DNA of 64,000 nucleotides from Candidatus Nitrosocosmicus franklandus (lineage in GTDB: Archaea > Thermoproteota > Nitrososphaeria > Nitrososphaerales > Nitrososphaeraceae). The stretch is from NCBI RefSeq assembly GCF_900696045.1, contig NZ_LR216287.1, forward strand, positions 1,116,001 to 1,180,000, read 5' to 3'. The number at the start of each line of letters is the position of its first letter. Positions within the stretch are counted from its first letter, which is position 1. The position numbers and the translations under genes were made by a program. The notes under the pieces are model-generated. The model made no database searches and had not been told where the DNA came from. It worked only from the letters and a program-made list of their open reading frames with translations. Positions 3,298 to 60,675 of the stretch are shown here, one piece after another.

Positions 3298-3402
3298 CAA
3301 AGGTAAATTCTGAGAACATGGAGATATGCTTCGAAGGTGAATGGAATCAACCAATGATTCTACTATACCAGTAATAAATAACCAAATCACAATCCCTGTT
3401 TG

Positions 3403-6049: not shown

Positions 6050-6190
6050 GGGATCAAGAGTATAGTTGCTCTATTACATTGAAGAGGATGGATTCGGTAG
6101 AATGCACTGCTAATTTGGAATGAATATTTGGAAAAATTGTAATAATCGCGTATTGATCTACTACCATTATTACTACGAGACAGTCGCATT
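6050..6190. repeat. Duplicated intergenic segment, copy 1
   Basis: The bases leading into the dispersed element at 6185 (agtatagttg..., gaagaggatggattcgg, aatatttggaaaaa) match those at about 48985-49103 with scattered changes. The two segments are copies of one locus, but the element that follows is type A here and type B there. Confidence 0.7.
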
Positions 6191-6238
6191 TAGTTTGGAC
6201 TCGCGGGGATTAAGTTACCAGTATTAATAGGGTTTCGT
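6185..6238 (+). repeat. Dispersed element, type A
   Basis: GCATTTAGTTTGGACTCG, then GGGGATTAAGTT and TTAATAGGGTTTC. Intergenic, between divergently placed neighbours. Confidence 0.8.
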
Positions 6239-6336
6239 AAAACAATTAACTATATCCAGATAAATCCTAGATTATGCTGAAATTCAAATAAAAAATATTG
6301 ATATCAATGTAGGAATAGATTTACAATTTACAGTTA

Positions 6337-6843: not shown

Positions 6844-7032
6844 GTTTTGGAGAATAAGTAATCCTATTTAAGTTAGAGACTTCATCGAATGCAAGTCCAA
6901 CACCATTAACTGTAACCCATGTTTCCTGTAAGAATAAGAAAATTCAAGATCGAATAGAAACAAGAATTAATTATAGTCGGGATCTGAAAAAATGAAAAAT
7001 TTTGTGCAGGATAATATCTTTATCAAATATAT

Positions 7033-7087
7033 TATCACTTAGTCTGAGCGCGTGGGGGCATAGTTCAATGCTCAAGAGTACCTATCC
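7033..7087 (+). repeat. Dispersed element, type B
   Basis: ATTATCACTTAGTCTGAG, CGCGTGGGGGCATAGTTCAA then TGCTCAAGAGTACC. It lies in the 6844-7217 gap, which otherwise holds nothing recognised. Confidence 0.7.
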
Positions 7088-7217
7088 TCATTAAGACACA
7101 GAATCAATATACTGAAGAAAGGAATTTGCTATAATTCATGGTGTCAACCGCCAGCCACAGCAAGGCTATACCCATCAAGTCCATCTTCATTTGTCCTTTT
7201 AGCATACAGAGTTCTCA

Positions 7218-7559: not shown

Positions 7560-7771
7560 GAAATTCTTAATATAACATCCTATAAATAAAATAATTAGAG
7601 TAACCTCATATTGGTAATAATTTACGTATTTCCAACTAAGGTAAAATCATTTAAGTAATTCCTTAGAAAAAAAATTAAATTTCATGACTAAATAGATTCT
7701 AAAATTAATTTGACAATTAACTAGGTAAAAATTCAAATTCCTATAATTTATAATATTATAACCACATTTAG

Positions 7772-7822
7772 CAACATCATTTTGATGGATGGGATTAAGT
7801 TCCTAGTGATAATGGGTCCATA
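7772..7822 (+). repeat. Dispersed element, type A
   Basis: ACATCATTTTGATGGATGGG, ATTAAGTTCCTAGTGATAAT then GGGTCC. It sits about 100 bp upstream of the SDR gene. Confidence 0.75.
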
Positions 7823-7925
7823 ATATATTTATATCAATATTATATCTTCAATAATTCATTCTTGAAAACAACCAACAATATACTATTTTCTATTGTGAAT
7901 CACTAATTTATATAACATCTTCCTT

Positions 7926-8951: not shown

Positions 8952-9097
8952 TAATGTAATTATTCACAATTTTGGCACCGTTGCACTCATTCTTGGGGAT
9001 AAAGGTTTCCGCGGCAGTAGGATTATAACACAAGGAGAATCAATTCCTATTTTGAGAGACAAAGAACAAAAGATGGGATGTACGAACGAATAGTCTA

Positions 9098-10408: not shown

Positions 10409-10675
10409 ATTTAATATTCATAACGTCGCAGATGTATTTGTATTTATAAGAGGTTTTACGTTAGTAAATTAAATATGTTATTGGATATTTGATTTTTGAT
10501 TCTTCAAATAGGTCATAAAAAAAATTAGGATGTAATATGAGAGTCTAATAACAAGAAGTCTAATATTTGGAGTTTAAATTCCTTAAAGTATAGATTTCAT
10601 GATCCCTAATGAACAGTGAATTTCCTATTTTGAACGTGTATTTTAGCGCTCAATATGTAATACGTTATTCTATAT

Positions 10676-10728
10676 ATAGTAACAGCTTAGGTTATTGAGG
10701 ATATAGTTCAAAGTTGAACCCAATCTAC
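10676..10728 (+). repeat. Dispersed element, type B
   Basis: TATAGTAACAGCTTAGG, TTGAGGATATAGTTCAA then AGTTGAACCCAATC; perfect TTCAA/TTGAA arms. It is the only feature I see in the 10409-10921 gap. Confidence 0.65.
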
Positions 10729-10921
10729 ACGTCATCAGACTAAAATAGTAGGAAAAAAGACGGCCATATTCTCCACAAAAACTCTAACGGTTTTCTTTCG
10801 TTCAGCCTTGCAAACATGTATTAATTTTAGAACTGATTATGTTTGTAAAAAACAATTAATCCATACTTTCACCCTAATCACTAACAATCATCTTTTTATA
10901 TAATTTTGTATTTTAAACAGA

Positions 10922-12392: not shown

Positions 12393-12489
12393 TTGAAAGT
12401 AAGATATAAAATGACAGATATAGTTCCTGAGTAGTTTAATGTTTTCAGAATTAAAATGTATAGGATGTTCAGAATAAGCATACAAATGC

Positions 12490-12542
12490 TAAGGTGCTCG
12501 GCCGTGGGGTTCAAGTTCCGCGTAGTATAAGGGTGTGGTGAA
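12490..12542 (+). repeat. Dispersed element, type A with variant 5' half
   Basis: AAGGTGCTCGGCCGTGGGG, TTCAAGTTCCGCGTAGTATA, then GGGTGTGG. The 5' half GGTGCTC...CGTGG is the same variant as at 32386 and 48180. It is in the 12393-12741 gap before the methyltransferase. Confidence 0.7.
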
Positions 12543-12741
12543 TAATGTGAAATTTTCCAAGGGTTTATAGAAAGATCTCTATGACCATTTTATAGAAATG
12601 AATCTGTGTCTAAAGGTTCTGCATTAGTCGCTTTAATATAATTTTATAGATTGATTAACAGCAGTAGTTCGTCTCATAATCCATTAATTTTTCATTAAAT
12701 GATCCATTTTTATATACTATGTATTCGGAGCGAAATGATGA

Positions 12742-19345: not shown

Positions 19346-19548
19346 TCTACAGATACGATTATCCACTCGAATTCCTTGATCAGGTCGCAATTCTAACTTT
19401 AATAAAGGCAGGTACAGAATTGGATTTCAATATAAAGTGTTTCCCAAACCTTGTTAGCATTCTACTTAACATAGCAAACACCTGTCGTAATTATCACTTC
19501 ACTGTATTATAATTCCAATAATACTTGCTAATCTACGTATGACGTTTT

Positions 19549-19606
19549 ATAATTGTCTGGGGGTGTGGAGATTAAATTCCTCCTGGTAGTGAAGTTCTAC
19601 TACATT
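19549..19606 (+). repeat. Dispersed element, type A
   Basis: TATAATTGTCTGGGGGTG, TGGAGATTAAATTCCTCC, TGGTAGTGAAGTTCTACTAC. It is the only structured feature I see in the 19346-19880 gap. Confidence 0.75.
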
Positions 19607-21948: not shown

Positions 21949-22014
21949 TTATCATATAAAGTATCATTTAGTTGAGGCACACGTGGACACTGTTCAGAGT
22001 TGAAGTGAACTTTT
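21949..22014 (+). repeat. Dispersed element, type B
   Basis: ATTATCATATAAAGTATCAT, TTAGTTGAGGCACACGTGG, ACACTGTTCAGAGTTGAAG. Full 5' half with the CATATAAAG lead seen also at 27650 and 49095. Confidence 0.8.
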
Positions 22015-22189
22015 GTTCACAAATCGCTCTACAGTATAAGAATTATTCGAGTTATAGAAGTCATTTTACCAAAGCTAGATAAATAATATGTATCAAAAAA
22101 AGTCTTGTAAAAGAGCCTAATATAGACAGCTAATCATTATGTAATGATTTAAAACATCTGAATTTGATTAAATATTAAAGAAGTTTAAA

Positions 22190-24330: not shown

Positions 24331-24391
24331 TATATTAAGCAACATCTATTTTGAACGCGTGGGAACACGGCCCAGGGTTGAATTCAATCAC
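24331..24391 (+). repeat. Dispersed element, type B
   Basis: TATTAAGCAACATCTATTTT, GAACGCGTGGGAACACGG, CCCAGGGTTGAATTCAATC. It lies between the hydrolase remnant and the patatin gene. Confidence 0.7.
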
Positions 24392-24475
24392 ATTTTTGAT
24401 CAATAAATGATGTGTTGGTTAACAAATTAAAGAATGAATACACTAATTTAGAAACTCAGATATGATTGTTTATAC

Positions 24476-26233: not shown

Positions 26234-27048
26234 TGGATGTGAATTGCAATTGAATTTTTAGATTAATAAGTTTTATCTTTATTGATAAAATTTCTTATTT
26301 CTCCGCTCTCTTCTTGTCATAATATAGTGATCTAACAAATTTTTTAATCCTAGTTAATTGGAATTATTAGAAATATCCGTAAGAACATTTTCAAGGCAGT
26401 GTAGACTCACTTAGGTTTGCCATGAGCCTGTAGTGAAGCATTCAAATCCCACTAAACAATAACAATCATATTATGATACTACCATTATATAGTATCATTT
26501 AATGTAGGCACGTGAGAACATGGTTCAATGTTGAACATAATCTGGGTAAAGCGATGACCAAAGATCAAGAAAAATTATACACACATAGTTATACCTTTTT
26601 GTATCAACGATTCCGGTATGTCATCGATCAATGACACTGAAGAAAATTAATTATATATATAAAGAATCGAATTAAGCAGAAACATCTGAAAATACTTGGA
26701 AGAAAAAGACAATAAAATAATCAAATCAATCAAAAGGGAAACCTTAGAAAAGGAAGAAAAGAAGAAAGGATGCCCTACAATAAGGAACAAACAACTTCTC
26801 TTTTGAGTAATAGGGATTGAATGGATACGATTACATATTTTTCAAACTCATATGCAAACCTTATTTTGTCAAAAAAACATATCAAGTGTATTTGCTTTTG
26901 ACTAAAGAATGTCATCATCAAGATCAAATTGAACCTTCGGGTAATGAAAGTGGGTTTGGGAGCAACAGTATTTCTACAAAAAATTTGAAAAGAAGATTGA
27001 AGGACACTCTTAATAGTTCGCCAATTCCATTCTCCTATGGAAGTTAAC
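26234..27048. other. Intergenic, contains one dispersed element
   Basis: Apart from the element at 26488-26544 I find no supported gene. The 76-aa frame at 26817-27047 has no recognisable pattern. The stretch 26660-26780 is A-rich and purine-biased. Confidence 0.45.
26488..26544 (+). repeat. Dispersed element, type B
   Basis: TATAGTATCATTTAATGTAG, GCACGTGAGAACATGG, TTCAATGTTGAACATAATC; near-perfect TTCAA/TTGAA arms. Confidence 0.8.
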
Positions 27049-27234: not shown

Positions 27235-27949
27235 ACTTTAATCTTTTATTGATAATTGTCAGCAAGATAGATCTTTTCTTCATTCTATTGTAAAAATTAT
27301 AAGTATATTTTAGAAAATCCCAAAAAATTAATAGTCATTTCCAAAAGGAACTTTATCGAAGTTAATTTGCTACATAAACAGCAACTACGCAGTCAAATCG
27401 AATGCTAGAAGTTTTATTCATATTCATATGTATACCTGACTACAACAGGGTCATTTTTTCGGTGCCATATATAAAAGACGATATTTCTTTTAGCCTTCAT
27501 TCAATTCTTTCCATCACAAATTTTGGCTTTATTTCTTAGCAGTGATCCCTTATCCAATGAGAACATTTAATCCAACCTTATGCGAAAGTCATTCGACTTT
27601 CACCGACATATTTATGATGTCTTTTGAAGATATACATCATATTATTATCATGTAAAGTATCATTTAGTTTAGTCGCGTGGGGATTAAGTTTTCCGTCGTA
27701 AATGGGTTCATTAAAATAGTTACAAAATAAGACAATCATATCCAAAAGGATAAACATTTCGAAAATATTCTATATACATCGCATACATATGAAATTTGAG
27801 AATTTAGGCTATTTCAAGACTTCAAATTGATAAATATGTGAATAGTTGGATCAAGTCCTTTTTTTGTGAAAATGTAAAAACAGGTTAAAAAATACCGCTC
27901 TGTTTAGAAAATGTAAGATTGTTGCATCTCGTTTTAAATATCTCCCAGG
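27235..27949. other. Intergenic, contains one dispersed element
   Basis: Apart from the element at 27655-27715, nothing is recognised on either strand. Confidence 0.45.
27655..27715 (+). repeat. Dispersed element, type A
   Basis: AAAGTATCATTTAGTTTAG, TCGCGTGGGGATTAAGTTTT, CGTAAATGGGTTC. Confidence 0.85.
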
Positions 27950-28760: not shown

Positions 28761-29330
28761 TTCAAGATAGTGGATCTGAATTTGGGCTAGAGTTTTATTC
28801 GGAATATAATAGTGGTTGGATTATCACAACAATCTGTTCGAATATATATGAAATTTTTCACTATATTTTCCAACAAACTTTATTTAATTCAAATAGGGTG
28901 ATCTTATTTAATTTCGCTGATTGAATTTTTTTCAATTCTAACCACCTTAATACTAATACCACATTGTGGCTATACCATTCAAAATTAAAACAATCCATTA
29001 ATTAATTTGATGCGAGTTTTGAGAGATGAATTCATGTTTCGGCCAACCTTGTTGTTGCTACAAGTATAATTTAAGCCATTTAGTTTGGGCGTGTGAGGAT
29101 CGAGTTCCTAGTGGTTGTGTGGTTCTAATACAAAAATTCAAAGACAACTAATTTTAAAGTACATGTGATTAAAAGTCATGTAAATTAGTTAATAGACTTT
29201 GGTTATATCCTCGATATTTACAATTTACAAAGCTTTTGTAAAAGGATATGTTTCAAGAAAAATAAATAGGTGATTATAGATATAGATCTAAAAAAAAGAT
29301 ATTATTTAAATCCCTAATGAATCAGGACAA
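28761..29330. other. Intergenic, contains one dispersed element
   Basis: Only the element at 29075-29130 is recognised; the remainder is AT-rich without a credible frame. Confidence 0.45.
29075..29130 (+). repeat. Dispersed element, type A
   Basis: GCCATTTAGTTTGGGCGTG, TGAGGATCGAGTTCCTAG, TGGTTGTGTGGTTCTAATAC. Confidence 0.85.
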
Positions 29331-30514: not shown

Positions 30515-31130
30515 ATTTTTTAGTAACAGTTTGGACGCGTAGGGATAAGTCCTTGTGGTAGTAAGGTTCTAATGTATTAAATATTTAGTTTTTCGAAACG
30601 TAACAAAATAATATATGAATTTACTGGGTCAACCATCAAAGGAAAAGCGAAAAAAACTTATAGATATTTTAATCCAAATAATTTGGAGGATATAATTTCT
30701 GACCATACCTTTCTGCAATACTCTGAACCCGTTTTTGTTCTTCGAAAGTCATTTGTGAAGGAGGTAAGAATGTGTTTGCAGGAACTGGTTTTCCTATTTC
30801 TCTAAACATTTTTTCCATACCAGCTGGTGTAATAAGGCATAACATGTGGGTTACCTTTTTTGTTTTGTTAATAAATTTATGCACTGGTCCATTAAAAGGA
30901 ATATTTACATGTGAACCCTTTGAAGCAGTATACGTTCCATCCTTCGTAATCACTTCAATCTCTCCATCTATTACATAAAATGCCTCTTGGAATTTGGGAT
31001 GAGAATGAGGTGGTGGACCACCATTTGGCGGAATCAACATATCTACAAGAGAATAAGCACCGCCTGTTTGCTCACCTCCGATTATAATTCTATAAGTATC
31101 TCCTCCTATTGATACGCTGTCTCCTTCCAG
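30515..31130. repeat. Segmental duplication, copy 1 (element plus cupin gene)
   Basis: This segment and 58568-59188 are nearly identical: the dispersed element, a spacer and most of the cupin gene. The sequence diverges beyond the cupin's 5' end, so this copy is the complete one. Confidence 0.85.
30521..30573 (+). repeat. Dispersed element, type A
   Basis: TAGTAACAGTTTGGACGCG, TAGGGATAAGTCCTTG, TGGTAGTAAGGTTCTAATG. The TAGTAACAG lead is shared with 10676, 41352, 50859 and 58574. Confidence 0.85.
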
Positions 31131-31169
31131 ATCGGTTATGGCAATAATGGAATTATTTGAGCTTTCCAT
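30669..31169 (-). CDS. Cupin-domain protein
   Basis: 166 aa with a single cupin barrel. Motif 1, PPHSHPKFQEAFYVIDGEIEV, supplies two His and a Glu for a metal site; motif 2 is around NIPFNGPVHKFINKT (the fourth, His, ligand). The C-terminal helix (QMTFEEQKRVQSIAERYG) is typical of archaeal single-domain cupins. Substrate unknown. A truncated copy lies at 58720. Confidence 0.85.
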   Translation of the reverse strand: MESSNNSIIAITDLEGDSVSIGGDTYRIIIGGEQTGGAYSLVDMLIPPNGGPPPHSHPKFQEAFYVIDGEIEVITKDGTYTASKGSHVNIPFNGPVHKFINKTKKVTHMLCLITPAGMEKMFREIGKPVPANTFLPPSQMTFEEQKRVQSIAERYGQKLYPPNYLD

Positions 31170-31756
31170 ATTTTAACCTGATAGCACATGAATTTAAAAT
31201 TATTTGTATTTTCTAGAATCAAGGGTGTTTTGAGCAGCATTTCCTTATTCCAAGTAATTCATAATCGCCATTTATAATATCATCTAGTCATGTAGTCAAA
31301 GCTTGATACAAAATATCTGAGAAATTACAAACAGTTTTCAGTCATTTTGAAATGATTCAAAGTGAATGAAATCAAGAATTAATTTGACAATTATATCTGG
31401 AAATGGATTCAATTATTGTCAATAATATTATTGTTATCATATTCAGTATCATCTAGTTTGGACGCATGGGAATCAAGTTCCCAGTAGTAATAGAGTCCAT
31501 AAAGTCCTAAAAAAATCTAATTACTCAGAGCCCTAGTTTAGCTGTTTATAGTCAAAGTATCATCTGTTGTTGATGCTTTTTCCAACTATATAAATGAAAA
31601 GTTGATTCCATAATGACAGGTCATAGGAAAAATATTCATATAATCTCAAATTTACATTTGTAAACTCCGGTATTTTTGTATCTTTTATTTCTACATACAG
31701 TATGACGTTTGTTATAAAAAGATAAAGATTCTACAAAAAGTGCCAAGGAAATCGTT
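31170..31756. other. Intergenic, contains one dispersed element
   Basis: Besides the element at 31445-31502 there is only a TATA box (TTATAAAAAG, 31711-31720) upstream of the SnoaL-like pseudogene. Confidence 0.45.
31445..31502 (+). repeat. Dispersed element, type A
   Basis: CAGTATCATCTAGTTTGGAC, GCATGGGAATCAAGTTCCC, AGTAGTAATAGAGTCC. Confidence 0.85.
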
Positions 31757-32098: not shown

Positions 32099-32760
32099 AA
32101 ATGTTACAATGTAACAATATCGATGATAGCTGTGATATATGATAACAAAATGGGCAAGCAATCCATCATTACAGGTATAATTCAAGGAAAGATATCATTG
32201 TGAATATCCTCTATACGAGTGAATCAGAATTTGGCGGTCCAATGTCAGAAGACGAAGTTATAGGAGTTTTCTTAGTTTAGTTAACAGCAGCAGCATCATC
32301 AACAAGAATGTTCATATTTCAAATTCAATAACCTACAGTTTTAGAATTAAATTACAAAAAATGAAAATAATATTACAAAAATACTGGGGTGCTCCATCAT
32401 GGAGGTAAAGTTCCTTGTAGTAAAGGGGTTCCATTACTTGTTAGATTTCTTAATTCACAGAGACCATTAGACTGTTGTTAATAGAGAAAAAACATCTTCA
32501 CCTAAAACGACCAAGGTCCTTGTTTTGAAAGTTGAGGCAAATTGGTGATTCGGTTGATTAGACGGGTTTGTACCACTACCATTTACATCTTGACAATTCA
32601 AGATAATAGGTTTGATTATAATGATTAGCACAAGACGGGTAGGAATTATCCAGATATTCAACGCGAAAGATGATAAACATATTTTGTTCAATAACATGTT
32701 AATCAATAATTATATACGATAATTATGTAGGTTTTTATAAAATATTATATAATTTCTTCC
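32099..32760. other. Intergenic, contains one dispersed element
   Basis: Apart from the element at 32386-32437 and the TATA box (TTTTTATAAAAT, 32731-32742) of the next gene nothing is supported. A short frame near 32200-32279 (VNILYTSESEFGGPMSEDEV) may be a gene scrap. Confidence 0.4.
32386..32437 (+). repeat. Dispersed element, type A with variant 5' half
   Basis: GGGGTGCTCCATCATGGAGG, TAAAGTTCCTTGTAGTAAA, GGGGTTCC. Same GGTGCTC variant as at 12490 and 48180. Confidence 0.75.
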
Positions 32761-37048: not shown

Positions 37049-37898
37049 CTTCTTCTCTTCACAATCTATACTATAAGATGTTTAACATAAGAAGGGGGAG
37101 GAGAAGGAGAAGAAGGAGAAGCAAGCGTATATCCAACGTTGTTGTTTATTTATTGACTGACAATTGTCTTGACTAATTACGGAAAACGACCAACCTCTAT
37201 AAGGATGGAGTTCAAATAATGTCATTTCCTTATTTCTTTGATTTTACCCTTTAATAAACACCTGTTTAGTAGCAGCGACCATTTTATCATACTATAATAG
37301 TTTCTGGCATTTGACATGACCGTTTGGACGAGTTCGAAACAGCGCGACTCATAATATCATTACTAAATGCAGCATCATTTAGTTTGGGCGCCCGGGAATT
37401 AGGTTTCCAATGGTAGAACAGTTCTAATGAACTTTCAAGACAAAATAACAAAATATGGTCATAAAGTTTTTGGAGACGGTTCATTACGATGCCTTGAATT
37501 GCTAATCTATCTAAAGGGTAGATTTGGCTATGCTTTTAACTCTTATCGCGTTTATAAACTGCTATTGGAATAATCGCTCGACATTACTTCTTCCGAAACA
37601 TATTATTATTTATTGTCCAGAGATATAGCTGATTATTTGATCTTTAATTATTTTATCTTATCGGAGACCATTGCAAGCTAGATAGCCTCATCTATCTTCT
37701 GTTGCTATGGTATAATATCTTGTAGTATACCAAATAGTATACAACCTACTGAAACAAGACAATATTCTGTCAATCCACATTAAAATGAGATAATGAAACT
37801 GCTGACAAATTAATAGTAAGACCAAGGCGTATCTCACATCATCCAAACCCTTGATATAATTATTGGTCAAATATTGATACAAGATTCATCATCATCAT
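37049..37898. other. Intergenic, contains one dispersed element
   Basis: Holds the element at 37370-37430 and a purine tract at 37094-37123 (ggggaggagaaggagaagaa). The frames at 37287 and 37688 have no credible composition. Confidence 0.45.
37370..37430 (+). repeat. Dispersed element, type A
   Basis: AGCATCATTTAGTTTGGGCG, CCCGGGAATTAGGTTTCC, ATGGTAGAACAGTTCTAATG. Confidence 0.85.
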
Positions 37899-38685: not shown

Positions 38686-38693
38686 ATTGATAT

Positions 38694-39362
38694 GGCTCTG
38701 TTCACTTAATATGTTTTATTTCATTGTTATGATAGTCTACAAAGAGCCGCAGCCAATTCCGTACATGCTTTAACTTGTAATTCTTTATTCTACAAGGAAA
38801 GTAGTCATCGAAACTTTCGGTTCTATCCTTTATGTATTGCATCTTTCTTTCAATCAGACTTTTCTCCAGAGAGGAATGAATGTGATGATCGAGATTTAAG
38901 AATCTACAGGCCATTGGATACCAAGTACCTCCATCATCAGTCGAAACTGGATGAATTCCATGAATCTTGACTAAATCTGAAATGAATCTTTCAGCTACAA
39001 ACATGTTTCTTTCTTTAGAGATAGACAGTGCGAGAATTTGCCTGTTTTCGGGTTCAGTTGCAACCCAGAGCCAGACAAACTCTGATCCCACCTTCAACAT
39101 GGTCTCATCTATTATATACTCTAGAACTCTTCTTCTAGTTGACTTAGCTTTTGAGGCTTGTACTTTTGAATCCAATTCCAAATGGAAACGTGATTTCTCT
39201 TGTATATCTGAGATAATCTTTCCGAGGCTTTCCTTAAGGATAGGCCTGAAAAGTACAAATGCAACCCATAATATACATACTTTGAAGGCGTTCTGTTTCT
39301 AGTAAGCATAAAAGAAATGGAATGCTTTCAAGCTATAGGCTTATCGTTAACTGAACAGAGCC
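38694..39362 (-). mobile_element. Insertion sequence copy 1 (IS6-like), 669 bp
   Basis: The ends are inverted: GGCTCTGTTCACTTAA on the left and the complement of GGCTCTGTTCAGTTAA on the right. Both sides carry the 8-bp direct repeat ATTGATAT (38686-38693 and 39363-39370), a target duplication of the size made by the IS6 family. It encodes one DDE transposase on the minus strand, with a 1-base deletion near 39142 relative to copy 2. Intact target duplications suggest simple insertion. Confidence 0.9.
38702..39309 (-). pseudogene. IS6-like DDE transposase, frameshifted (copy 1)
   Basis: The N-terminal part (MLTRNRTPSKYVYYGLHLYF, helix-turn-helix region RKASERLSQIYKRNHVSIWNW) is in one frame to about 39142. 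The catalytic part (YIIDETMLKVG with Asp, VSTDDGGTWY with Asp, SLIERKMQYIKDR with Glu) continues in another frame. Copy 2 shows the missing base (TTGACTTCAGC against TTGACTTAGC). The catalytic D-D-E triad itself is intact. Confidence 0.85.
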
Positions 39363-39456
39363 ATTGATATAGTACATAATAGTAATGAAATATCATGTAA
39401 TCGTTCCATAATAAGTAATGAGTCTTTTAGAAATTACAACTGCATTGCCTTATGGT

Positions 39457-39515
39457 ACAATATCGAATATGAACGCATGGGGATTAAGTTCCCGGTGGTA
39501 ATGAGGTTTTACCAG
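39457..39515 (+). repeat. Dispersed element, type A
   Basis: ACAATATCGAATATGAACGC, ATGGGGATTAAGTTCCCGG, TGGTAATGAGGTTTTACC. Only recognised feature of the 39371-39802 gap. Confidence 0.8.
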
Positions 39516-39802
39516 AATTTGAAAAACAATATGTATAGTTCAAATAGATTTCATTTACATTGCAAACAGGGCCAAGAATAATATAACAGTCATAGTCTGA
39601 ATCGATTTTAAATACCATTCCTATAAATTATTTGATTTATGAACTTTCTGTTAGCACAAAAATCTTATGCGTGGTGTATGATTTGAATGAACAAGATGAC
39701 TATAAATTAAGGTTTTTTCACTGACATACAGCAAAGTCACTCACAATTTGCAATAATCTTGTAAGGGACAACTTTATACGTTTATACTCAATAGATTAGG
39801 AG

Positions 39803-41275: not shown

Positions 41276-41351
41276 ATCTAATTGCATTACGAATCTTTGA
41301 TTTGATTGTGCAAATTAATGCTTAATATTAAGACATTTGATATGCGTAATA

Positions 41352-41408
41352 GTAGTAACAGTCTGCGCGCGGGGATCAAGTTCTTGGAGATAATATGGTT
41401 CTACTACG
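41352..41408 (+). repeat. Dispersed element, type A
   Basis: TAGTAACAGTCTGCGCGCGG, GGATCAAGTTCTTGGAG, ATAATATGGTTCTACTAC. TAGTAACAG lead variant. Confidence 0.8.
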
Positions 41409-45465: not shown

Positions 45466-45526
45466 ATAGTATTATTTAGTTTGGGTGCGCGGGGATTAAG
45501 TTCCGTGTGATAATAGAGTTCTAAAA
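45466..45526 (+). repeat. Dispersed element, type A
   Basis: ATAGTATTATTTAGTTTGGG, TGCGCGGGGATTAAGTTCCG, TGATAATAGAGTTCTAAAAC. In the 45343-45647 gap. Confidence 0.85.
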
Positions 45527-45647
45527 CATTGATCAATAATATACATCTTTTGATACCAAAATAATCTAGCAATTGGATGAACAGAACCTAATAGATACAC
45601 ATCTACAGTTGTCATATTTAGGGTTGACCTAGGATTGTTGTAAATTA

Positions 45648-46184: not shown

Positions 46185-47325
46185 AAGGCTTAAAATCGAT
46201 ATGACTAATTTTACTTCAATTAAATACTAGTCTATATCCAATTAGCCATAGGAAAATTTGATTGTTGTTGAGAGATACCTTATCAAGCATTTCTTCAAAA
46301 AGAGTATGAGAATAGCATCTTTAGATCACATTCTTCTTCATTTTATTTCTTGTTTGTAACATCATCTTGACAATGACTGCATTTCCCCTTTATGCTTTTT
46401 TATTAATGGAATACCGACTTTGAGTTTTATTGTCTTTGTCAACATTATACAATTTTGATGTTTATCATTTATTGTTGTACAGAATGCATCTGACTTTTAT
46501 AGATATGAATTAATAAATTATAGAATCTATGATAAAAATGCAATCCTGAAGAATTATATTGATACGTTATATTTTGTTGGTGCTATTTATTGGTAGTAGT
46601 GTTGTAACGTGGGGATTAAGTTCCTAGTGGTAATAGGGTTCCAACATAACTTATTGATATGTATGGTATGATCAAATTAAACAGATCTAGAATCTAAAAT
46701 CTAAAACTAATCTTGTTTGGGAACTGAAAGCTAAGGATAACAACCGGAACACAATTTAACACATGCAGGCATCGGATCTTGGTACTGAAATCTGTTGGTG
46801 CGTTTCAAGACCTTTATTGGCTTTCGCCAAAGCCTACATACTGTTGCAGAAGGAATATGTATATATGCAAAATTATCATAAATTATTTTCTAAGCCGGTA
46901 TTTTTTTACCCCTTTTTTACAATTGTATTTTTATCCTTTAGTATAAGTAACAAGATAAAGTCAATTCTATGTTTTCATTCTGACAGAAATAATTCCTGAA
47001 GTAATAACTAAACAACAGAAAATTATTTGTTAAAAATGGATCGCCAGCTTTAGGTCATCATTGATGAATTTTTTAGTGCATTTAATGTCTTACCTCCCTT
47101 GTATTTCTTGCTTTTCATTGTATTGCAACCCTTGTCTGATTCGTTACAGGCATATTTTTTGATCATATCAAAGCATTAATATCCAAATCCTGTGGTAACG
47201 GTAGTCAAATTCGTGACGGATCCGATCAAAAACGCAGTAACAAAAAACTATGTAATTATTTGAAAGTCAGTTTTGAATTTTCCAAATTTTTCTGGCTTTG
47301 GTTTTTATTCATATCGCAGACATCA
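46185..47325. other. Long intergenic, contains one dispersed element
   Basis: Besides the element at 46596-46648 no gene is supported; the frame at 46763-46999 starts out of context and has poor composition. Confidence 0.45.
46596..46648 (+). repeat. Dispersed element, type A
   Basis: GTAGTGTTGTAACGTGGGG, ATTAAGTTCCTAGTGG, TAATAGGGTTCCAAC. The 3' half equals the consensus. Confidence 0.8.
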
Positions 47326-48150: not shown

Positions 48151-48179
48151 TGTAAAGAATAATGCAGTGTACAAAAATG

Positions 48180-48228
48180 CTGCGGTGCTCCGCCATGGAG
48201 ACATGATTAAAGGTTGAATCTAATCCCA
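48180..48228 (+). repeat. Dispersed element, type B with variant 5' half
   Basis: TGCGGTGCTCCGCCATGG, AGACATGATTAAAGG, TTGAATCTAATCCC. GGTGCTC 5' half combined with a type B 3' half. Confidence 0.75.
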
Positions 48229-48246
48229 ACAAATGACACCTTACTT

Positions 48247-49102: not shown

Positions 49103-49156
49103 AAGTATCATTTAGTATGGGCACGTGGGGAAATGTTCAAGGTTGAATAGAATCCA
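49103..49156 (+). repeat. Dispersed element, type B
   Basis: AAGTATCATTTAGTATGGGC, ACGTGGGGAAATGTTCAAGG, TTGAATAGAATCC; perfect TTCAA/TTGAA arms. Confidence 0.85.
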
Positions 49157-49337
49157 TAATCTGTGAATACCACAAAGAAAAGTAATTCAGAGAAAAAAAT
49201 ATGTTAAATTCAAGTCAATCATTATTAAGATTTGAAATATCATTGTCGATCTATTCCGAAATCTTGTCAATGCATAAATATTGATATAACATTTACAAAT
49301 AGGGGCATTTGGTATAACAAGGCGATTCATTATTTGT

Positions 49338-49923: not shown

Positions 49924-49981
49924 AATATCATTTAGTTTAAGCGCTTGGAGATTAAGGGCCGAGTGGTGAAGGGGTTCTATA
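49924..49981 (+). repeat. Dispersed element, type A
   Basis: AATATCATTTAGTTTAAGCG, CTTGGAGATTAAGGGCCG, AGTGGTGAAGGGGTTC. Confidence 0.8.
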
Positions 49982-50040
49982 ATAAAGCTATTAAGATAAT
50001 CCAGGATTAAACTGAAAGTAAGAAAGAAGAGGTTTTGGAT

Positions 50041-50670
50041 TTAGTTTTGGGCTGCTGCGTTGCTACCGCTGTTTGTTTGGCTTTGAACGTTCACATTGTT
50101 GCCAGAGCCTATTGTGTCTCCGCCGGATACTACCTGACTGTTTTGTTCACTTGATTGTGATTGGCTGATGCTTTGTTCTGCAGAGTTGCCACTTCCTTTT
50201 CCACTTCCTTGTTGTTGTGCCAATGCGTTGTTACCAGAGTTTTCTTGGTTCTGAACGTTGATGTTGTTGCCAGAGCCTATTGTGTCTCCGCCGGATACTA
50301 CCTGACTGTTTTGTTCACTTGATTGTGATTGGCTGATGCTTTGTTCTGCAGAGTTGCCACTTCCTTTTCCACTTCCTTGTTGTTGTGCCAATGCGTTGTT
50401 TCCTGTATTCTTTTGGTTTTGGAAGCTAAGGTTATTGCATGATACGAATGTTCCACTTCCAGATACACACAAGGCATTTTGTACCGAAGCTTGTGACTGC
50501 TCTATAGCTTGCTGAGCTACGTTACCACTTTTTTTCTTGTTGGTTGCAAATGCATCATTATCCATAGCCATTAACGGACTGGTGATTAATGCCAAAGCGA
50601 CCACTATTGCGATTGATGCTACCATAAATTTGTTTTTGTTTGTGTTGTGAATATTTTTTGTTTTGTTCAT
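50041..50670 (-). CDS. Secreted repeat protein with exact 168-bp internal repeat
   Basis: 209 aa, paralogue of 1779-2228. Signal peptide MVASIAIVVALALITSPLMA. Cys pair CVSGSGTFVSCNN after the first SQASVQN block. The mature region contains two copies of a 56-residue unit (starts NNALAQQQGSGKGSG, then NSAEQSISQSQSSEQNSQVV and SGGDTIGSG) with almost no DNA difference, so the duplication is recent or kept alike by gene conversion. Gln/Asn/Ser/Gly-rich periodic sequence suggests a beta-solenoid or curlin-like fibre subunit (hypothesis). Expressed from the shared palindromic promoter. Confidence 0.85.
   Translation of the reverse strand: MNKTKNIHNTNKNKFMVASIAIVVALALITSPLMAMDNDAFATNKKKSGNVAQQAIEQSQASVQNALCVSGSGTFVSCNNLSFQNQKNTGNNALAQQQGSGKGSGNSAEQSISQSQSSEQNSQVVSGGDTIGSGNNINVQNQENSGNNALAQQQGSGKGSGNSAEQSISQSQSSEQNSQVVSGGDTIGSGNNVNVQSQTNSGSNAAAQN
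50098..50433. repeat. Two direct 168-bp repeats inside the gene
   Basis: Units begin at about 50098 and 50266 (TTGCCAGAGCCTATTGTG in both) and are identical over most of their length. Copy number may vary between strains. Confidence 0.85.
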
Positions 50671-50786: not shown

Positions 50787-50858
50787 TTTACAAATAGTAG
50801 ATTCTTTGACCTAAGTATGCTTATTTGTGCTTAAAGTAAGACAATTATACCTGTTTCT

Positions 50859-50908
50859 TAGTAACAATCTAGGCGCGTGGGGACATGATTCAAGGTTGAA
50901 TCCAATTC
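50859..50908 (+). repeat. Dispersed element, type B
   Basis: TAGTAACAATCTAGGCGCG, TGGGGACATGATTCAAGG, TTGAATCCAATTC; perfect TTCAA/TTGAA arms. Confidence 0.85.
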
Positions 50909-51187
50909 TTTCATACAGCAATGTTCTATATAATCAGTCTAGAACTATATTATTGGGACACTTTTTGAGATAGGGTTATTCAACCACTTATTGATTATAT
51001 CATTAATGCGTCAATTCAAATCTATACAACTGATATGTTTGTAGCCATGTTAAATTTTCAAAGAATTAATGATTATCGTCCTTTTAAGGATCTCAGTTTA
51101 GGAGTATTTGAAAGGCAGAAGACCTGGACTGTTATAGACCAAATCAAACCCAATCCACTAAGATTAAATCTTTGAATTGCTAAATAA

Positions 51188-52121: not shown

Positions 52122-52376
52122 AAAATCGTATAGTTATGTTATTTGATAAAAACCTCATGATATAACCTACATTAAGGGATTCAAAAATTCTTTAAGCATT
52201 TAATCTTTGATTGAATTCATTTGATGTATATGATTTAATCCATAAAAGAAATAGTCAACTCGGTATTATCATGTTAAAAAAGTTCAAATCAAGTCAAATT
52301 AATATCGTTATCCATATATAGTATCATTTAGTTTGGGAGCGTGGAGACACGGTTCATGATTGAATAGATTCTGAAG
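52122..52376. repeat. Duplicated upstream region, copy 1, ending in a type B element
   Basis: The 200 bases (AATCGTATAGTTAT, AAAAACCTCATG, ATTCATTTGATGTATATG ...) match 56608-56806. Both copies end in a dispersed element, but this one is type B and the other type A. Confidence 0.85.
52319..52376 (+). repeat. Dispersed element, type B
   Basis: TAGTATCATTTAGTTTGGG, AGCGTGGAGACACGG, TTCATGATTGAATAG. Confidence 0.85.
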
Positions 52377-52499
52377 ACAACGACGTATCCAGCATATGGA
52401 TAAATCCATTAGTTCGATTCACCAATTCTATCTCATAAAAGTCAAATATTGACCTCATCAAGGCAAGTTTTTAATAAAATGGGATTTTAATACAATACA

Positions 52500-52643: not shown

Positions 52644-53320
52644 GGCTCTGTTCAGTTAACATGTTTTATTTCATTGTTGTGATAGTCTACAAAGAGCCGC
52701 AGCCAATTCCGTACATGCTTTAACTTGCAGTTCTTTATTCTACAAGGAAAGTAATCATCGAAACTTTCGGTTCTATCCTTTATGTATTGCATCTTTCTTT
52801 CAATCAGACTTTTCTCCAGAGAGGAATGAATGTGATGATCGAGATTTAAGAATCTACAGGCCATTGGATACCAAGTACCTCCTCCATCATCAGTCGAAAC
52901 TGGATGAATTCCATGAATCTTGACTAAATCTGAAATGAATCTTTCAGCTACAAACATGTTTCTTTCTTTAGAGATAGACAGTGCGAGAATTTGCCTGTTT
53001 TCTGTCTGGTTCAGTTGCAACCCAGAGCCAGACAAACTCTGATCCCACCTTCAACATGGTCTCATCTATTATATACTCTAGAACTCTTCTTCTAGTTGAC
53101 TTCAGCTTTTGAGGCTTGTACTTTTGAATCCAATTCCAGATGGAGACATGGTTTCTTTTATACATCTGAGACAATCTTTCCGAGGCTTTTCTTAAAGATA
53201 AACCTGAAAAGTACAAATGCAACCCATAACATACATACTTTGAAGGCGTTCTGTTTCTAGTAAGCATAAAAGAAATGGAATGCTTTCAAGCTATAGGCTT
53301 ATCGTTAACTGAACAGAGCC
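52644..53320 (-). mobile_element. Insertion sequence copy 2 (IS6-like), 677 bp
   Basis: Ends GGCTCTGTTCAGTTAA and its complement. No target duplication flanks it (CAGTCTGG against AGATGAAG), unlike copy 1, so a deletion or recombination has removed one side. Length differs from copy 1 by +8 from three indels (+1, +4, +3). Confidence 0.9.
52652..53267 (-). pseudogene. IS6-like DDE transposase, frameshifted (copy 2)
   Basis: The N-terminal part reads through the position where copy 1 is broken (KYKPQKLKSTRRRVLEYIID). A 4-base insertion near 53004 (TTTTCTGTCTGG against TTTTCGGG) then changes the frame after WVATEP. An extra GGA codon gives DDGGG. Combining the two copies would restore a full transposase. 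Confidence 0.85.
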
Positions 53321-54104
53321 AGATGAAGATATATCATTCCTTATAATTTGAATATATTGACATTGTATGATGGAATGAAAAAAATCTATTTAAATTGATG
53401 TCATAATAAGTGTGTTTTAGTTGGGGTATAACATAATTACACAGTCGAAATTATTCCTTCATAACATCACAGGCATTTTCATGTGATCATAGGATCGATA
53501 AATATCTATGTAGAGGACTAAAAGCAATATTTTATTTGGCTCGCTTCAATTCTCCCTAGATTTGCTATGTTATTTTCTGCACAGGATGGGATTTCCTGAT
53601 CCTGTTCCAGAGAAATCGATAATGACTAAATGTCCTTTTGCGGATGCACATATAAATTGAAGGAATTTTCTCATAAGTATATTTAAGGTAATCTCTTATA
53701 TAAGGATATTGGATTTTAATTACAATCATAACCAATTATTACAATAATGATAAATGATGCGGTAATCATCGGTGAAAATGCAATACTCTCATAATGAAGT
53801 AATTCTTTAAAAATCATGGTTCCTATCCGATGAGCAGAGAATCCTTGTGATACAATATCATGATTTAACATACTGCCCCTTCCCTTATGAAGCAAAGAAA
53901 ATCTTTGATTTGAAAGTTTAACCAACTCACATGAAACCAATACTGAAGGGCGTAATAATATATTTAGTGTATCCTCCAAAACTCCTTATATCGTCTTAAA
54001 TGAAACATTCTAAGAATATTGCGAATTTGCCGGATTGTACCTTTTATTGTCATTTTAGTCCAATTATAAGTAAGAATTAATAACTTGTCTCATTTTAGAG
54101 AGTT
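53321..54104. other. Intergenic, one weak frame
   Basis: Contains only a weak 87-aa frame (TTG 53979 to 53716, minus), with a hydrophobic end (FSPMITASFIIIVIIGYDCN) that could be a tail anchor. No family pattern. Otherwise nothing. Confidence 0.4.
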
Positions 54105-55520: not shown

Positions 55521-55576
55521 GATATCATTTAGTTTGTGTGTGTGGAAGTACAATTCAAGACGGAATAGAATCTCAA
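55521..55576 (+). repeat. Dispersed element, type B
   Basis: GGATATCATTTAGTTTGTG, TGTGTGGAAGTACAATTCAA, GACGGAATAGAATC. It sits between convergent genes. Confidence 0.8.
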
Positions 55577-55629
55577 TCATAGTAAATCCAAGTCAGATGA
55601 GAAATACTGGCTTATCTAGTTGATTGAGC

Positions 55630-56607
55630 CTAGTTATCAGAAATTTCGAGGCTTTGGATTTCATTCCAGTATTTTTCGAACAGTACATCCTGAACCAAAA
55701 CCATATGTTCTTCATTGGAAGACAATGCAAATATTTTGCCATCTTGTTGGTTTTTTGTCTGCAAAACTTGTTTCCCATCAGCCAATACAACCATTTCATT
55801 AAAGCAGCAAAGACTTTTGCCATGACCATATCTTATGGGATTGTCTTCGTTTGTTTGATTAAGTTCTGATATTTGTTTTGAAAATATTTCATCGGTTTCA
55901 TCAGTCAATATTTTTATTGATACCCCTCTTTTCTGAGCAGATTTAATTTTAGCAATATTATGTCTATTAATAAATAGTTGATTAAGAGAACTCAGGGATG
56001 AAAATATCAATAGTTCTTTTCTACTCTGGTCTATGATAAAATTAAGTTCATCTTTGAATTCATAAATATTGTTGATCATTCGCTGATACTTTGATCGATC
56101 GCTTCCATCTAATTCTCTTATTCGGACAGAAAGCGGAATGCTGATTTCCCATAATTTGTTAAAAAGGCCTACCTGTCGTTTCACTAGATCAGGATTATTA
56201 CTAAATAAGGTTTGATCAGGTAAGTCGCTCTTTTGATGAAAGAGATAAACCATATATGCCCTCTGGTCAGCGATACCCATATTTCCCCTTAGACTGTCCA
56301 CATGACGAATGTTTGGAAAATTTAATTCGCTTACGCGATCGACATTTTCAGGAGTGACCTCAATAATAAGATTTAATATAATTTCGTTATTTGCAATTTG
56401 CTTCTCTACTACTCTAAAACCATCTTGGAAATATTTGTATGCAGATTCAAAAATAGCACTATCCCATATAGTGTTATGGCCTTTCTCTGTGAATGGGAGA
56501 CCTCTACGAACTATTTCATACATCATATGGGGATCCGATATTACATCAGTAATTACGGGACTTCGAAAATTAGATGCAATCAATTGATTAATCGTTGATT
56601 CATCCAC
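55630..56607 (-). CDS. Stand-alone sensor-module protein (intact)
   Basis: 325 aa, GTG start. N-terminal unit DESTINQLIASNFRSPVITD with PHMMYEIVRRGLPFTEKGHN; middle IIDQSRKELLIFSSLSSLNQLF; C-terminal VSIKILTDE, RYGHGKSLCCFNEMVVLADG and VLFEKYWNEIQSLE. The second half is the module found in the 15905 kinase and it stops where a kinase would start. No TM or output domain, so a soluble partner protein for a kinase is the best guess. Fragments of it occur at 51770, 52500 and 59189. Confidence 0.75.
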   Translation of the reverse strand: MDESTINQLIASNFRSPVITDVISDPHMMYEIVRRGLPFTEKGHNTIWDSAIFESAYKYFQDGFRVVEKQIANNEIILNLIIEVTPENVDRVSELNFPNIRHVDSLRGNMGIADQRAYMVYLFHQKSDLPDQTLFSNNPDLVKRQVGLFNKLWEISIPLSVRIRELDGSDRSKYQRMINNIYEFKDELNFIIDQSRKELLIFSSLSSLNQLFINRHNIAKIKSAQKRGVSIKILTDETDEIFSKQISELNQTNEDNPIRYGHGKSLCCFNEMVVLADGKQVLQTKNQQDGKIFALSSNEEHMVLVQDVLFEKYWNEIQSLEISDN

Positions 56608-56806: not shown

Positions 56807-56870
56807 ATAGTATCATTTAGTTTGAGTGCGTGGGGATTAAGTTCCTTGTGGTAGCAGGGTTCTAACACAA
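56807..56870 (+). repeat. Dispersed element, type A
   Basis: TATAGTATCATTTAGTTTGA, GTGCGTGGGGATTAAGTTCC, TGTGGTAGCAGGGTTCTAAC. Confidence 0.9.
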
Positions 56871-58495: not shown

Positions 58496-58573
58496 AATCA
58501 TATATCTATAGAAGCAGATTAATTGATGATTAAACAACTCAATTCAACGACCCATATTTTGTACAATCATTAA

Positions 58574-58626
58574 TAACAGTTTGGACGCGTACGGATCAAA
58601 GTCCTTGTGGTAGTAAGGTTCTAATG
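58574..58626 (+). repeat. Dispersed element, type A
   Basis: TAATAACAGTTTGGACGCG, TACGGATCAAAGTCCTTG, TGGTAGTAAGGTTCTAATG; near-identical to the element at 30521. Confidence 0.85.
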
Positions 58627-58719
58627 TATTAAATATTTAGTCTTCGAGACGTAACAAAACAATATATGAATTTACTGGGTCAACCATCAAAGGAAAGGCG
58701 GAAAAAACTTATAGATATT

Positions 58720-59188
58720 TTAATCCAAATAATTTGGAGGATATAATTTCTGACCATACCTTTCTGCAATACTCTGAACCCGTTTTTGTTCTTCGAAAGT
58801 CATTTGTATAGGGGGTAAGAATGTGTTTGCTGGAACTGGTTTTCCTATTTCTCTAAACATTTTTTCCATACCAGCTGGTGTAATAAGGCATAACATGTGG
58901 GTTACCTTTTTTGTTTTGTTAATAAATTTATGCACTGGTCCATTAAAAGGAATATTTACATGTGAACCCTTTGAAGCAGTATACGTTCCATCCTTCGTAA
59001 TCACTTCAATCTCTCCATCTATTACATAAAATGCCTCTTGGAATTTGGGATGAGAATGAGGTGGTGGACCACCATTTGGCGGAATCAACATATCTACAAG
59101 AGAATAAGCACCGCCTGTTTGCTCACCTCCTATGATAATTCGATAAGTATCCCCTACTATTGATATGCTGTCGCCTTCCAGATCGGTT
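58720..59188 (-). pseudogene. Truncated cupin copy
   Basis: The cupin frame (TDLEGDSISIVGDTYRII ... LYPPNYLD) is intact but its first 11 residues are gone, and an in-frame TAA stands directly before the remaining part. Translation could start only at Met 59091 (MLIPPNGGPPPHSHPKFQE), losing the first barrel strands, though the metal residues would remain. Confidence 0.75.
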
Positions 59189-59296
59189 TATGTCTATTAA
59201 TAAATAGTTGATTAAGAGAACTCAGGGATGAAAATATCAATAGTTCTTTTCTACTCTGGTCTATGATATAATTAAGTTCATCTTTGAATTCATAAA
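59189..59296 (-). pseudogene. Fragment of the sensor-module gene
   Basis: 108 bases identical except one position to 55959-56066 (encoding YEFKDELNYIIDQSRKEL, then LIFSSLSSLNQLFINRH). It is joined on one side to the truncated cupin and on the other, in frame, to an integrase start. The near-identity shows a recent rearrangement. Confidence 0.8.
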
Positions 59297-59471
59297 ATTG
59301 ATTGGCCTTCTCTTCAATAGACGACCCTAGTAGCTTCAAATAGTCAAGGAAAACCTCCAAACGTTTAGGATATTGCCTTCTTGTTTCTGGAGCCCTTAAT
59401 GCATAAATAAATCTAAAGTATGGAGAATCTATCATGATCGGTTCCGTTATATTGTGCTCATGTGATTGCAA
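59297..59471 (-). pseudogene. N-terminal fragment of a tyrosine recombinase/integrase
   Basis: TTG 59471 encodes QSHEHNITEPIMIDS, PYFRFIYALRAPETRRQYPK and RLEVFLDYLKLLG: the SAM-like core-binding start of archaeal phage-type integrases (R-Y-P-K-R-L followed by FLDYL). The catalytic domain is missing. The fragment ends 56 bp from the 3' end of a tRNA-Lys gene on the same strand, the usual location of integrase genes. Confidence 0.6.
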
Positions 59472-59527
59472 CTCTATCTCTAACGATATTCATCACATTG
59501 GGCCTAAAAAAGGATTCAGTTATGAAG

Positions 59528-59618
59528 CGGGCCCGTGGGGATTCGAACCCCAGACAGCCGGATTTCTTTCTAAAACTAGTTAAAAGTCCGGTACTCTACC
59601 TGGCTGAGCTACGGGCCC
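59528..59618 (-). tRNA. tRNA-Lys(UUU) with intron
   Basis: Reads GGGCCCG (acceptor), GCTCAGCCAGGTAGAGT (D arm), CCGGA-CTTTTA (anticodon arm, TTT), a 17-base intron after position 37 (ACTAGTTTTAGAAAGAA), A-TCCGG, then GGGGTTCGAATCCCC (T arm) and CGGGCCC with discriminator G. No CCA is encoded. Introns at 37/38 are the standard archaeal site. A CTATAAAAT box about 40 bases upstream fits its promoter. Confidence 0.95.
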
Positions 59619-59867: not shown

Positions 59868-60137
59868 ATGAGTAACATAACAAAAAACTATAAGGTCGGA
59901 ATATTTGCAATGTTTATTGCAGCAGCCTTAATCGGTTCAGTAGTTGCCTTTGGTGACAACTATGCATACGCTGGTGGAAAGAAGAAATCTAATGATGCAG
60001 AACAAGAAATCGAACAAGGTCAAGCAAACGAGCAGAACGGACAATGTGTTACTGGCACCTTCTCCTTAATAAACTGCAATAACGTAGGATTACTATTCCA
60101 AGACAACGAAGGCAACCTAGCATTAGGTCAGCAATAA
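59868..60137 (+). CDS. Small secreted Cys-pair protein, twin 1
   Basis: 89 aa. Signal peptide VGIFAMFIAAALIGSVVAFG with AYAGG end, then basic GGKKKSNDAEQ, the block EIEQGQANEQNGQCVTG and the second Cys SLINCNNVG. The layout E/Q-x-x-Q, CV-(S/T)-G, CNN is the one seen in the 1779 and 50041 proteins, so all four form one superfamily of surface proteins. A tandem copy follows. Confidence 0.85.
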   Translation: MSNITKNYKVGIFAMFIAAALIGSVVAFGDNYAYAGGKKKSNDAEQEIEQGQANEQNGQCVTGTFSLINCNNVGLLFQDNEGNLALGQQ

Positions 60138-60357: not shown

Positions 60358-60405
60358 GTATCCAAACTATGATATAATTAATTTAGATTATAGAATTTGA
60401 TTATA
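60358..60405 (+). promoter_or_regulatory. Promoter of twin gene 2
   Basis: Copy of the 59820 block: GTATCCAAACTATGATATAA then TTAATTTAGATTATA. This shows the ATG 60406 is the real start. Confidence 0.7.
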
Positions 60406-60675
60406 ATGAGTAACATAACAAAAACCCACAAAGTTGGCATTTTTGCAATGTTTATTGCAGCAGCCTTAATCGGTTCAGTAGTTGCCTTTGGTGACAACTA
60501 TGCATACGCTGGTGGAAAGAAGAAATCTAATGATGCAGAACAAGAAATCGAACAAGGTCAAGCAAACGAGCAGAACGGACAATGTGTATCTGCAACCTTT
60601 ACAATAGCTGGATGTAACAACCTCGGATTAATGTTCCAGTTCCAAGACGGTAATATTGCCGCAGGACAACAATAA
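60406..60675 (+). CDS. Small secreted Cys-pair protein, twin 2
   Basis: 89 aa from ATG 60406 (an upstream TTG at 60397 is ignored because twin 1 starts with the same MSNITK). DNA from the signal peptide to NGQCV is identical to twin 1; the C-terminal third differs (SATFTIAGCNNLGLMFQFQD). A sharply bounded identical block suggests gene conversion or very recent duplication with diversifying tails. Confidence 0.85.
   Translation: MSNITKTHKVGIFAMFIAAALIGSVVAFGDNYAYAGGKKKSNDAEQEIEQGQANEQNGQCVSATFTIAGCNNLGLMFQFQDGNIAAGQQ

Follow-up and report, generated by a model that had tools for sequence, protein, structure and literature searches.

Directional tandem arrays of elements sharing one site, some without a recombinase of their own, are known from SCC elements and from the tycheposons of Prochlorococcus. 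To our knowledge such arrays have far fewer units and larger elements than the array described here, and use different recombinases or sites. Integrons known to date from Archaea rely on IntI and attC (PMC9668308), and cores of attachment sites as short as 8 bp are reported for archaeal elements or recombinases (PMC6563490, PMC8371274). PMC6563490, a survey of thaumarchaeal elements from 2019, states that counterparts of bacterial classes, integrons for example, may await discovery, leaving the existence of such a system open, and neither Nitrosocosmicus nor cassette arrays are mentioned there. Term searches of this survey and of the review of archaeal recombinases (PMC8371274) found no such system described (subscription papers and preprints lay outside the search).

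A stretch of 64 kb (the window, positions 1116001-1180000 of a complete 2.84-Mb Candidatus Nitrosocosmicus genome) was analysed. It probably carries an integron-like array of non-autonomous cassettes at a tRNA-Lys gene, mobilised in trans by a tyrosine integrase of a thaumarchaeal family, with recombination deduced from the comparisons given below.

The tRNA-Lys anchor and the site array

The initial annotation, made from the letters alone, had placed an intron-containing tRNA-Lys beside an integrase, and this was upheld: RF00005, the only Rfam family matched, scored 57.8 bits and the anticodon loop is CTTTTAA. An ARAGORN call of Leu(TAA) for 59527-59618 was dropped, as this conserved loop is interrupted at 37/38; read together with its relatives, the sequence is that of a tRNA-Lys(UUU) with an intron of about 16 nt. 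The right flank of the gene is syntenic in the seven relatives compared, whereas the left flank differs in each of them, starting from the tRNA 3' end. This tRNA is therefore a hot spot of integration, in keeping with the annotated view that an integrase beside a tRNA 3' end usually marks an integrated element, and the second tRNA 3' end that had been thought worth seeking was absent from the window and neighbouring stretches. Upstream of the tRNA is a gene for a small secreted Q/N-rich protein, conserved in relatives, in tandem copies (59868-60137 and 60397-60675), with longer relatives at 1779-2228 and 50041-50670 of the window.

The 3' end of tRNA-Lys (GGGCCC GTGGGGAT TCGAACCCC) holds the core of a site of about 60 bp, made up of a left arm, the core GTGGGGAT and a right arm. 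The primary core lies at 59535-59542 on the + strand, and in the consensus a left arm GTATCATTTAGTTTGGGCGC (A) or CTTAGTAACAGTCTGGGCGC (B) is followed by GTGGGGAT and then by one of four right arms. Scanning with the type-1 right arm alone found 18 copies in the window and a two-arm scan about 29, all on the + strand (Table 1). The cupin copy in the initial annotation begins at one of these sites and is one among about 28 such units in the window, a point absent from that annotation. All 18 sites scored above 29, while 30 dinucleotide shuffles gave a top score of 15.5 and no site. As the scoring matrix had been built from the same 18 sites, the left arms served as an independent check: 11 matches were found in the window against 0.03 expected. 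The arms are mosaic, A and B both occurring with right arms 1 to 4 and C with 1 and 2, and the arm types assort and recombine freely. The accessory genes of the window include those for cytochrome P450, cupins, sensors, methyltransferases and dehydrogenases. A transposase-like element of about 680 bp is present in three copies, 96-99% identical and one of them inverted (38687-39373, 52644-53321 and, in the right flank, about G000:1186115-1186789).

Table 1. Coordinates of features in the window (A and B, left arms; 1 and 2, right arms)
Feature	Position	Strand	Evidence or remark
tRNA-Lys(UUU) gene with intron	59527..59618	-	Rfam RF00005, 57.8 bits
Integrase-side arm (attI-like), integrase start to tRNA core	59472..59534	+	same sequence in G003 and G009
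Tyrosine integrase, first 66 codons, catalytic part deleted	59274..59471	-	76% identity to G003 integrase
Sensor-gene filler	59188..59300	-	98.2% to 55958-56071; overlaps integrase remnant over TGAATTCATA
Second cupin cassette copy, truncated, starts at own site	58589..59187	-	96.6% to 30520-31137
Site, core 58589, B-1	58569..58628	+	PSSM/arm scan
Cargo: cytochrome P450	56948..58495	+	Pfam PF00067, 5.8e-80
Site, core 56830, A-1, best match in window	56810..56869	+	PSSM/arm scan and independent checks
Cargo: sensor-like protein, weak PLD-like match, filler source	55630..56607	-	Pfam
Site, core 55542, A-2	55522..55581	+	two-arm scan, left-arm check
Site, core 52341, A-2	52321..52380	+	two-arm scan, left-arm check
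Site, core 50877, B-2; left end of cassette also in G003 C11 and G013	50857..50916	+	two-arm scan
Site, core 49945, A-1	49925..49984	+	PSSM/arm scan
Site, core 49125, A-2	49105..49164	+	two-arm scan, left-arm check
Site, core 48195, weak left arm, right arm 2	48175..48234	+	two-arm scan
Site, core 46609, right arm 1	46589..46648	+	PSSM/arm scan and independent check
Site, core 45489, A-1	45469..45528	+	PSSM/arm scan
Site, core 41369, B-1; left end of cassette common with G013	41349..41408	+	PSSM/arm scan
Site, core 39477, right arm 1	39457..39516	+	PSSM/arm scan
Site, core 37392, A-1	37372..37431	+	PSSM/arm scan
Site, core 32399, right arm 1	32379..32438	+	PSSM/arm scan
Site, core 31466, A-1	31446..31505	+	PSSM/arm scan
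Parental intact cupin gene, 166 aa	30669..31169	-	source of the second copy
Site, core 30539, B-1, start of parental cupin cassette	30519..30578	+	PSSM/arm scan
Site, core 29093, A-1	29073..29132	+	PSSM/arm scan
Site, core 27677, A-1	27657..27716	+	PSSM/arm scan
Site, core 26512, A-2	26492..26551	+	two-arm scan
Site, core 24359, right arm 2, weak	24339..24398	+	two-arm scan
Site, core 21981, A-2	21961..22020	+	two-arm scan, left-arm check
Site, core 19565, right arm 1	19545..19604	+	PSSM/arm scan
Site, core 12504, right arm 1, decayed	12484..12543	+	PSSM/arm scan
Site, core 10695, right arm 2	10675..10734	+	two-arm scan
Site, core 8993, right arm 1; starts cassette 8993-10695	8973..9032	+	whole cassette common with G003 C24
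Site, core 7788, right arm 1, decayed	7768..7827	+	PSSM scan
Site, core 7052, A-2	7032..7091	+	two-arm scan, left-arm check
Site, core 6203, A-1	6183..6242	+	PSSM/arm scan
Possible site, core 3318, right arm 2, very weak	3298..3357	+	two-arm scan

By the two-arm scan, relatives have arrays of 15-70 sites with one dominant orientation, the longest reaching about 70 sites and 165 kb. Orientations were 50:2 (G006), 70:0 (G013) and 15:0 (G003 contig 24) in arrays beside the equivalent tRNA-Lys, and 21:0 (G003 contig 11) and 29:0 (G009) on contigs without that gene. Small secondary groups of sites were seen away from tRNA-Lys at G006:C1:196419-209305 and G013:C1:655999-664167. When the site pattern was searched for in about 85,000 species, 26 of 27 matches were in Nitrosocosmicus/Nitrososphaerales and the remaining one was a chance match. 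The site is essentially confined to Nitrosocosmicus. It is absent from four Nitrosocosmicus genomes, other relatives have chance-level matches at most, and the type-2 arm is present in one other genus of the family. IMG/VR contigs gave no match to the site pattern, and viral contigs searched for the integrase family gave one distant integrase only.

Site quality falls with distance from tRNA-Lys in three complete genomes (rho -0.62, -0.61 and -0.37), which fits insertion at the tRNA end; no such gradient was seen in the short contig G003 C24. To the left of the detectable array, in G000:C1:1036001-1116000, blocks match single cassettes of other genomes and sites are unrecognisable. The island in the source genome may exceed 130 kb, with a decayed old part.

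Proposed cassette exchange and the integrase

Homology between arrays is limited by cassettes. The 262 homology blocks found between array positions contained 8 sites against 113 expected by shifting, and 147 of their 1048 ends fell at cores against 27 expected. As the sites are intergenic, this null somewhat overstates the result, and a gene-gap control was therefore made: neighbouring genes stayed adjacent across 3 of the 24 site-bearing gaps, compared with 25 of the 42 site-free ones (Fisher p = 2e-4), or in 3 of 23 against 13 of 28 when gaps of at least 150 bp were taken. The control meets the objection, but with smaller numbers. The whole cassette 8993-10695 sits between other neighbours in G003 C24, and the cupin cassette is present in another context in G003 C11 (90% identity). 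Duplicates inside G006 and G013 are 97.7-97.9% identical, which suggests recent events. In pairs with a common right-hand body identity ends to the left of the core, and in pairs with a common left-hand body it ends from position +7; the overlap is GTGGGGA, and on these alignments the crossover maps to GTGGGGA(T). To judge by such comparisons, the DNA between sites behaves as mobile cassettes.

In the relatives, autonomous elements of 8-15 kb lie directly behind tRNA-Lys and encode an integrase and a P-loop ATPase, joined in two of three by a primase. The element of G003, about 8 kb and intact, is bounded by the tRNA at 42.2 kb and by the first site at 34.0 kb, and encodes the integrase and a P-loop ATPase-like protein (P-loop read from the sequence by eye). 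In each of G006 and G013 an ATPase-like protein is likewise encoded by the head element, which adds a primase (PriX domain in G006; G013 similar by eye). In 13 relatives of the integrase R163, K191, H294..R297, H319 and Y327 are conserved, corresponding to the catalytic R, K, HxxR, H/W and Y of tyrosine recombinases; the remnant in the window is without that part. PF00589 was matched in 10 of these 13 family members, the best NCBIfam match of the integrase was XerA_Arch (weak, far below cut-off) and a PDB profile search with the family gave no match. The closest proteins are archaeal XerA-type and thaumarchaeal integrases. Across Nitrosocosmicus the family is found 3' of Lys, Arg, Ala and Val tRNA genes.

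The type-4 cassette arm is identical with the arm that separates tRNA-Lys from the 407-aa integrase of G006 (z 10.7), and the 9-kb element there ends in this arm on its far side as well; the type-3 arm is similar to that of two other integrases. The commonest right arms, 1 and 2, matched no particular integrase. In G009 a hybrid site joins the integrase-side arm at GTGGGGATT to a type-1 cassette right arm.

Apart from two remnants in G013, the arrays of G006, G013, G009 and the window have practically no integrase genes, and since the cassettes are without integrases, we infer that integrase acts on them in trans. The 3' end of tRNA-Lys(UUU) would be the primary site for this thaumarchaeal family, with an autonomous element between the tRNA and the array and tens of small cargo cassettes behind (median site spacing 1.8 kb). 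Each cassette would begin with the core GTGGGGAT and a right arm and finish with a left arm; wherever two cassettes adjoin in the array, the left arm of the first and the right arm of the second would thus form a site. Strand exchange within GTGGGGA(T) would then insert, excise and reshuffle cassettes, with the tRNA/integrase end as the main place of insertion. On this view the integrase of this family would be the catalyst, cassettes would pass through circular intermediates, and the system may be active today. Most cassette left arms have GGGCGC, not GGGCCC. Insertion of such a cassette at the tRNA would break one base pair of the acceptor stem, and cassettes may accordingly insert into array sites rather than into the tRNA itself.

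The decay gradient, the anchoring at tRNA and the position of the autonomous elements would also fit simple accretion, each unit being what is left of an integrative element that entered tRNA-Lys complete and on its own and then lost its integrase, with no trans-acting system; archaeal cases of tandem integration at a single site are known (PMC6563490). This is unlikely: the units are small (median 1.8 kb), integrases are nearly missing from the four arrays as noted above, and individual cassettes, complete and bounded by cores on either side, recur across arrays and species, as random decay would not have them do. Still less probable, and by a wide step, are regulatory or dispersed repeats (terminators, MITE- or REP-like sequences) shuffled by homologous recombination. 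The sites do lie between genes and contain short inverted repeats, but they keep a near-strict single orientation in each array and are concentrated in one region beside tRNA-Lys; unrelated arms assort freely around an 8-bp core, with a hybrid to the tRNA arm, and the common identity is too short for homologous recombination. Terminators in particular would not suit gene directions that are mixed relative to the sites (263 vs 213).

The integrase remnant beside tRNA-Lys

Pfam gave no integrase match for the 104-aa frame alone, on which score alone the annotation of 59297-59471 as an integrase would have fallen, but DNA and protein comparison with G003 (Nitrosocosmicus sp. SS) settles the matter in its favour. 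Over 66 residues the remnant is 76% identical (E 1e-28) to an intact 419-aa integrase, which adjoins the equivalent intron-containing tRNA-Lys(UUU) and has the equivalent right flank. A near-identical sensor piece (113 bp, 98.2% identity, one mismatch and one gap) is, as annotated, fused in frame with the N-terminal part of the integrase (frame 59157-59471), and next to it stands a truncated copy of the cupin cassette from 30.5 kb (58570-59188 against 30520-31137, 96.6% over 620 bp), which keeps its 3' end and lacks its start.

The junction of integrase and sensor is TGAATTCATA, 10 bp present in both parents; at that of sensor and cupin both parents have TTATG, with an offset of one base. These microhomologies agree with the illegitimate joining proposed in the initial annotation. 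The event would be a deletion sealed with filler from a template 3.2 kb distant, as in microhomology-mediated repair or template-switching, and the missing part corresponds to the element of about 8 kb in G003. The autonomous element here would have been cut to a 256-bp integrase-end remnant by a joining that took in 113 bp copied from a neighbouring cassette and truncated the adjoining cupin cassette. Excision of an element, put forward at first as a possibility, was not supported: comparison of the locus in relatives, where G003 keeps the intact element at the equivalent place, revealed an internal deletion instead, and the integrase would not have survived a precise excision, which cuts at the tRNA core. 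The broken integrase beside tRNA-Lys is what a deleted mobile element has left behind where the array begins.

The C-terminal part of the integrase, which the annotation proposed to seek elsewhere, was not found in the source genome; other members of the family are present there, at or near other tRNA genes. The tRNA-Lys locus of this strain has no intact cognate integrase, and with that enzyme destroyed the array here may have come to a standstill, unless a different integrase acts on it. A further family member, in a state of heavy decay, was seen at G000:C1:2703317-2703967, near an intron-containing tRNA (2705029-2705126) read as Arg(UCU). Truncated integrases that keep the N-terminus also stand beside the equivalent tRNA-Lys at G004:C66:5186-5518 and G015:C216:23085-23339. 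Such N-terminal remnants recur perhaps because the tRNA must stay while the rest gets deleted.

Relation to integrons and tRNA-targeted elements

As in integrons, an array of sites in one orientation stands beside an integrase. Older cassettes lie further away and the first site is a hybrid, a likeness to sedentary chromosomal integrons and to the archaeal IntI/attC systems (PMC9668308); the G009 hybrid at GTGGGGATT is the equivalent of an attI x attC junction. In contrast to integrons, the core here derives from tRNA-Lys, the integrase belongs to a different family and an autonomous element stands at the head. RNAalifold on sites of types 1-4 gave short stems only on the top strand and none on the bottom strand, and no attC-like hairpin on either. 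The cassette genes do not run in one direction (263 vs 213). The system works like an integron but fails in two features tested, the foldable attC and one-way genes. A true integron from bacteria, with IntI and folded attC, is hardly credible, for although a direct-site array adjoins a tyrosine recombinase whose start lies at the primary site and archaeal integrons with IntI are reported (PMC9668308), this reading is contradicted by the missing hairpin, and the core is GTGGGGAT in place of the integron core, the primary site is a tRNA gene, gene orientation is mixed and the integrase is nearest to archaeal XerA-type and thaumarchaeal integrases.

The system is built from parts of tRNA-targeted integrative elements: an integrase lies next to a tRNA 3' end and the att core comes from the tRNA. 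Such elements have an integrase each, whereas here the head element alone has one. Nor is the integrase of the suicidal SSV type, since in G003 the integrase gene is unbroken, with the core upstream of it and the full tRNA alongside.

On balance, and with some reserve, the array in the window and its relatives can be regarded as a convergent archaeal counterpart of the integron, with a tRNA as primary site, short double-stranded sites with exchangeable arms, and integrases of resident elements acting in trans. Nitrosocosmicus are widespread soil ammonia oxidisers. If the proposal is true, a cassette platform would explain accessory gene gain and reshuffling in Nitrosocosmicus, and integron-like gene capture would have arisen a second time, from a tRNA-targeting integrase.
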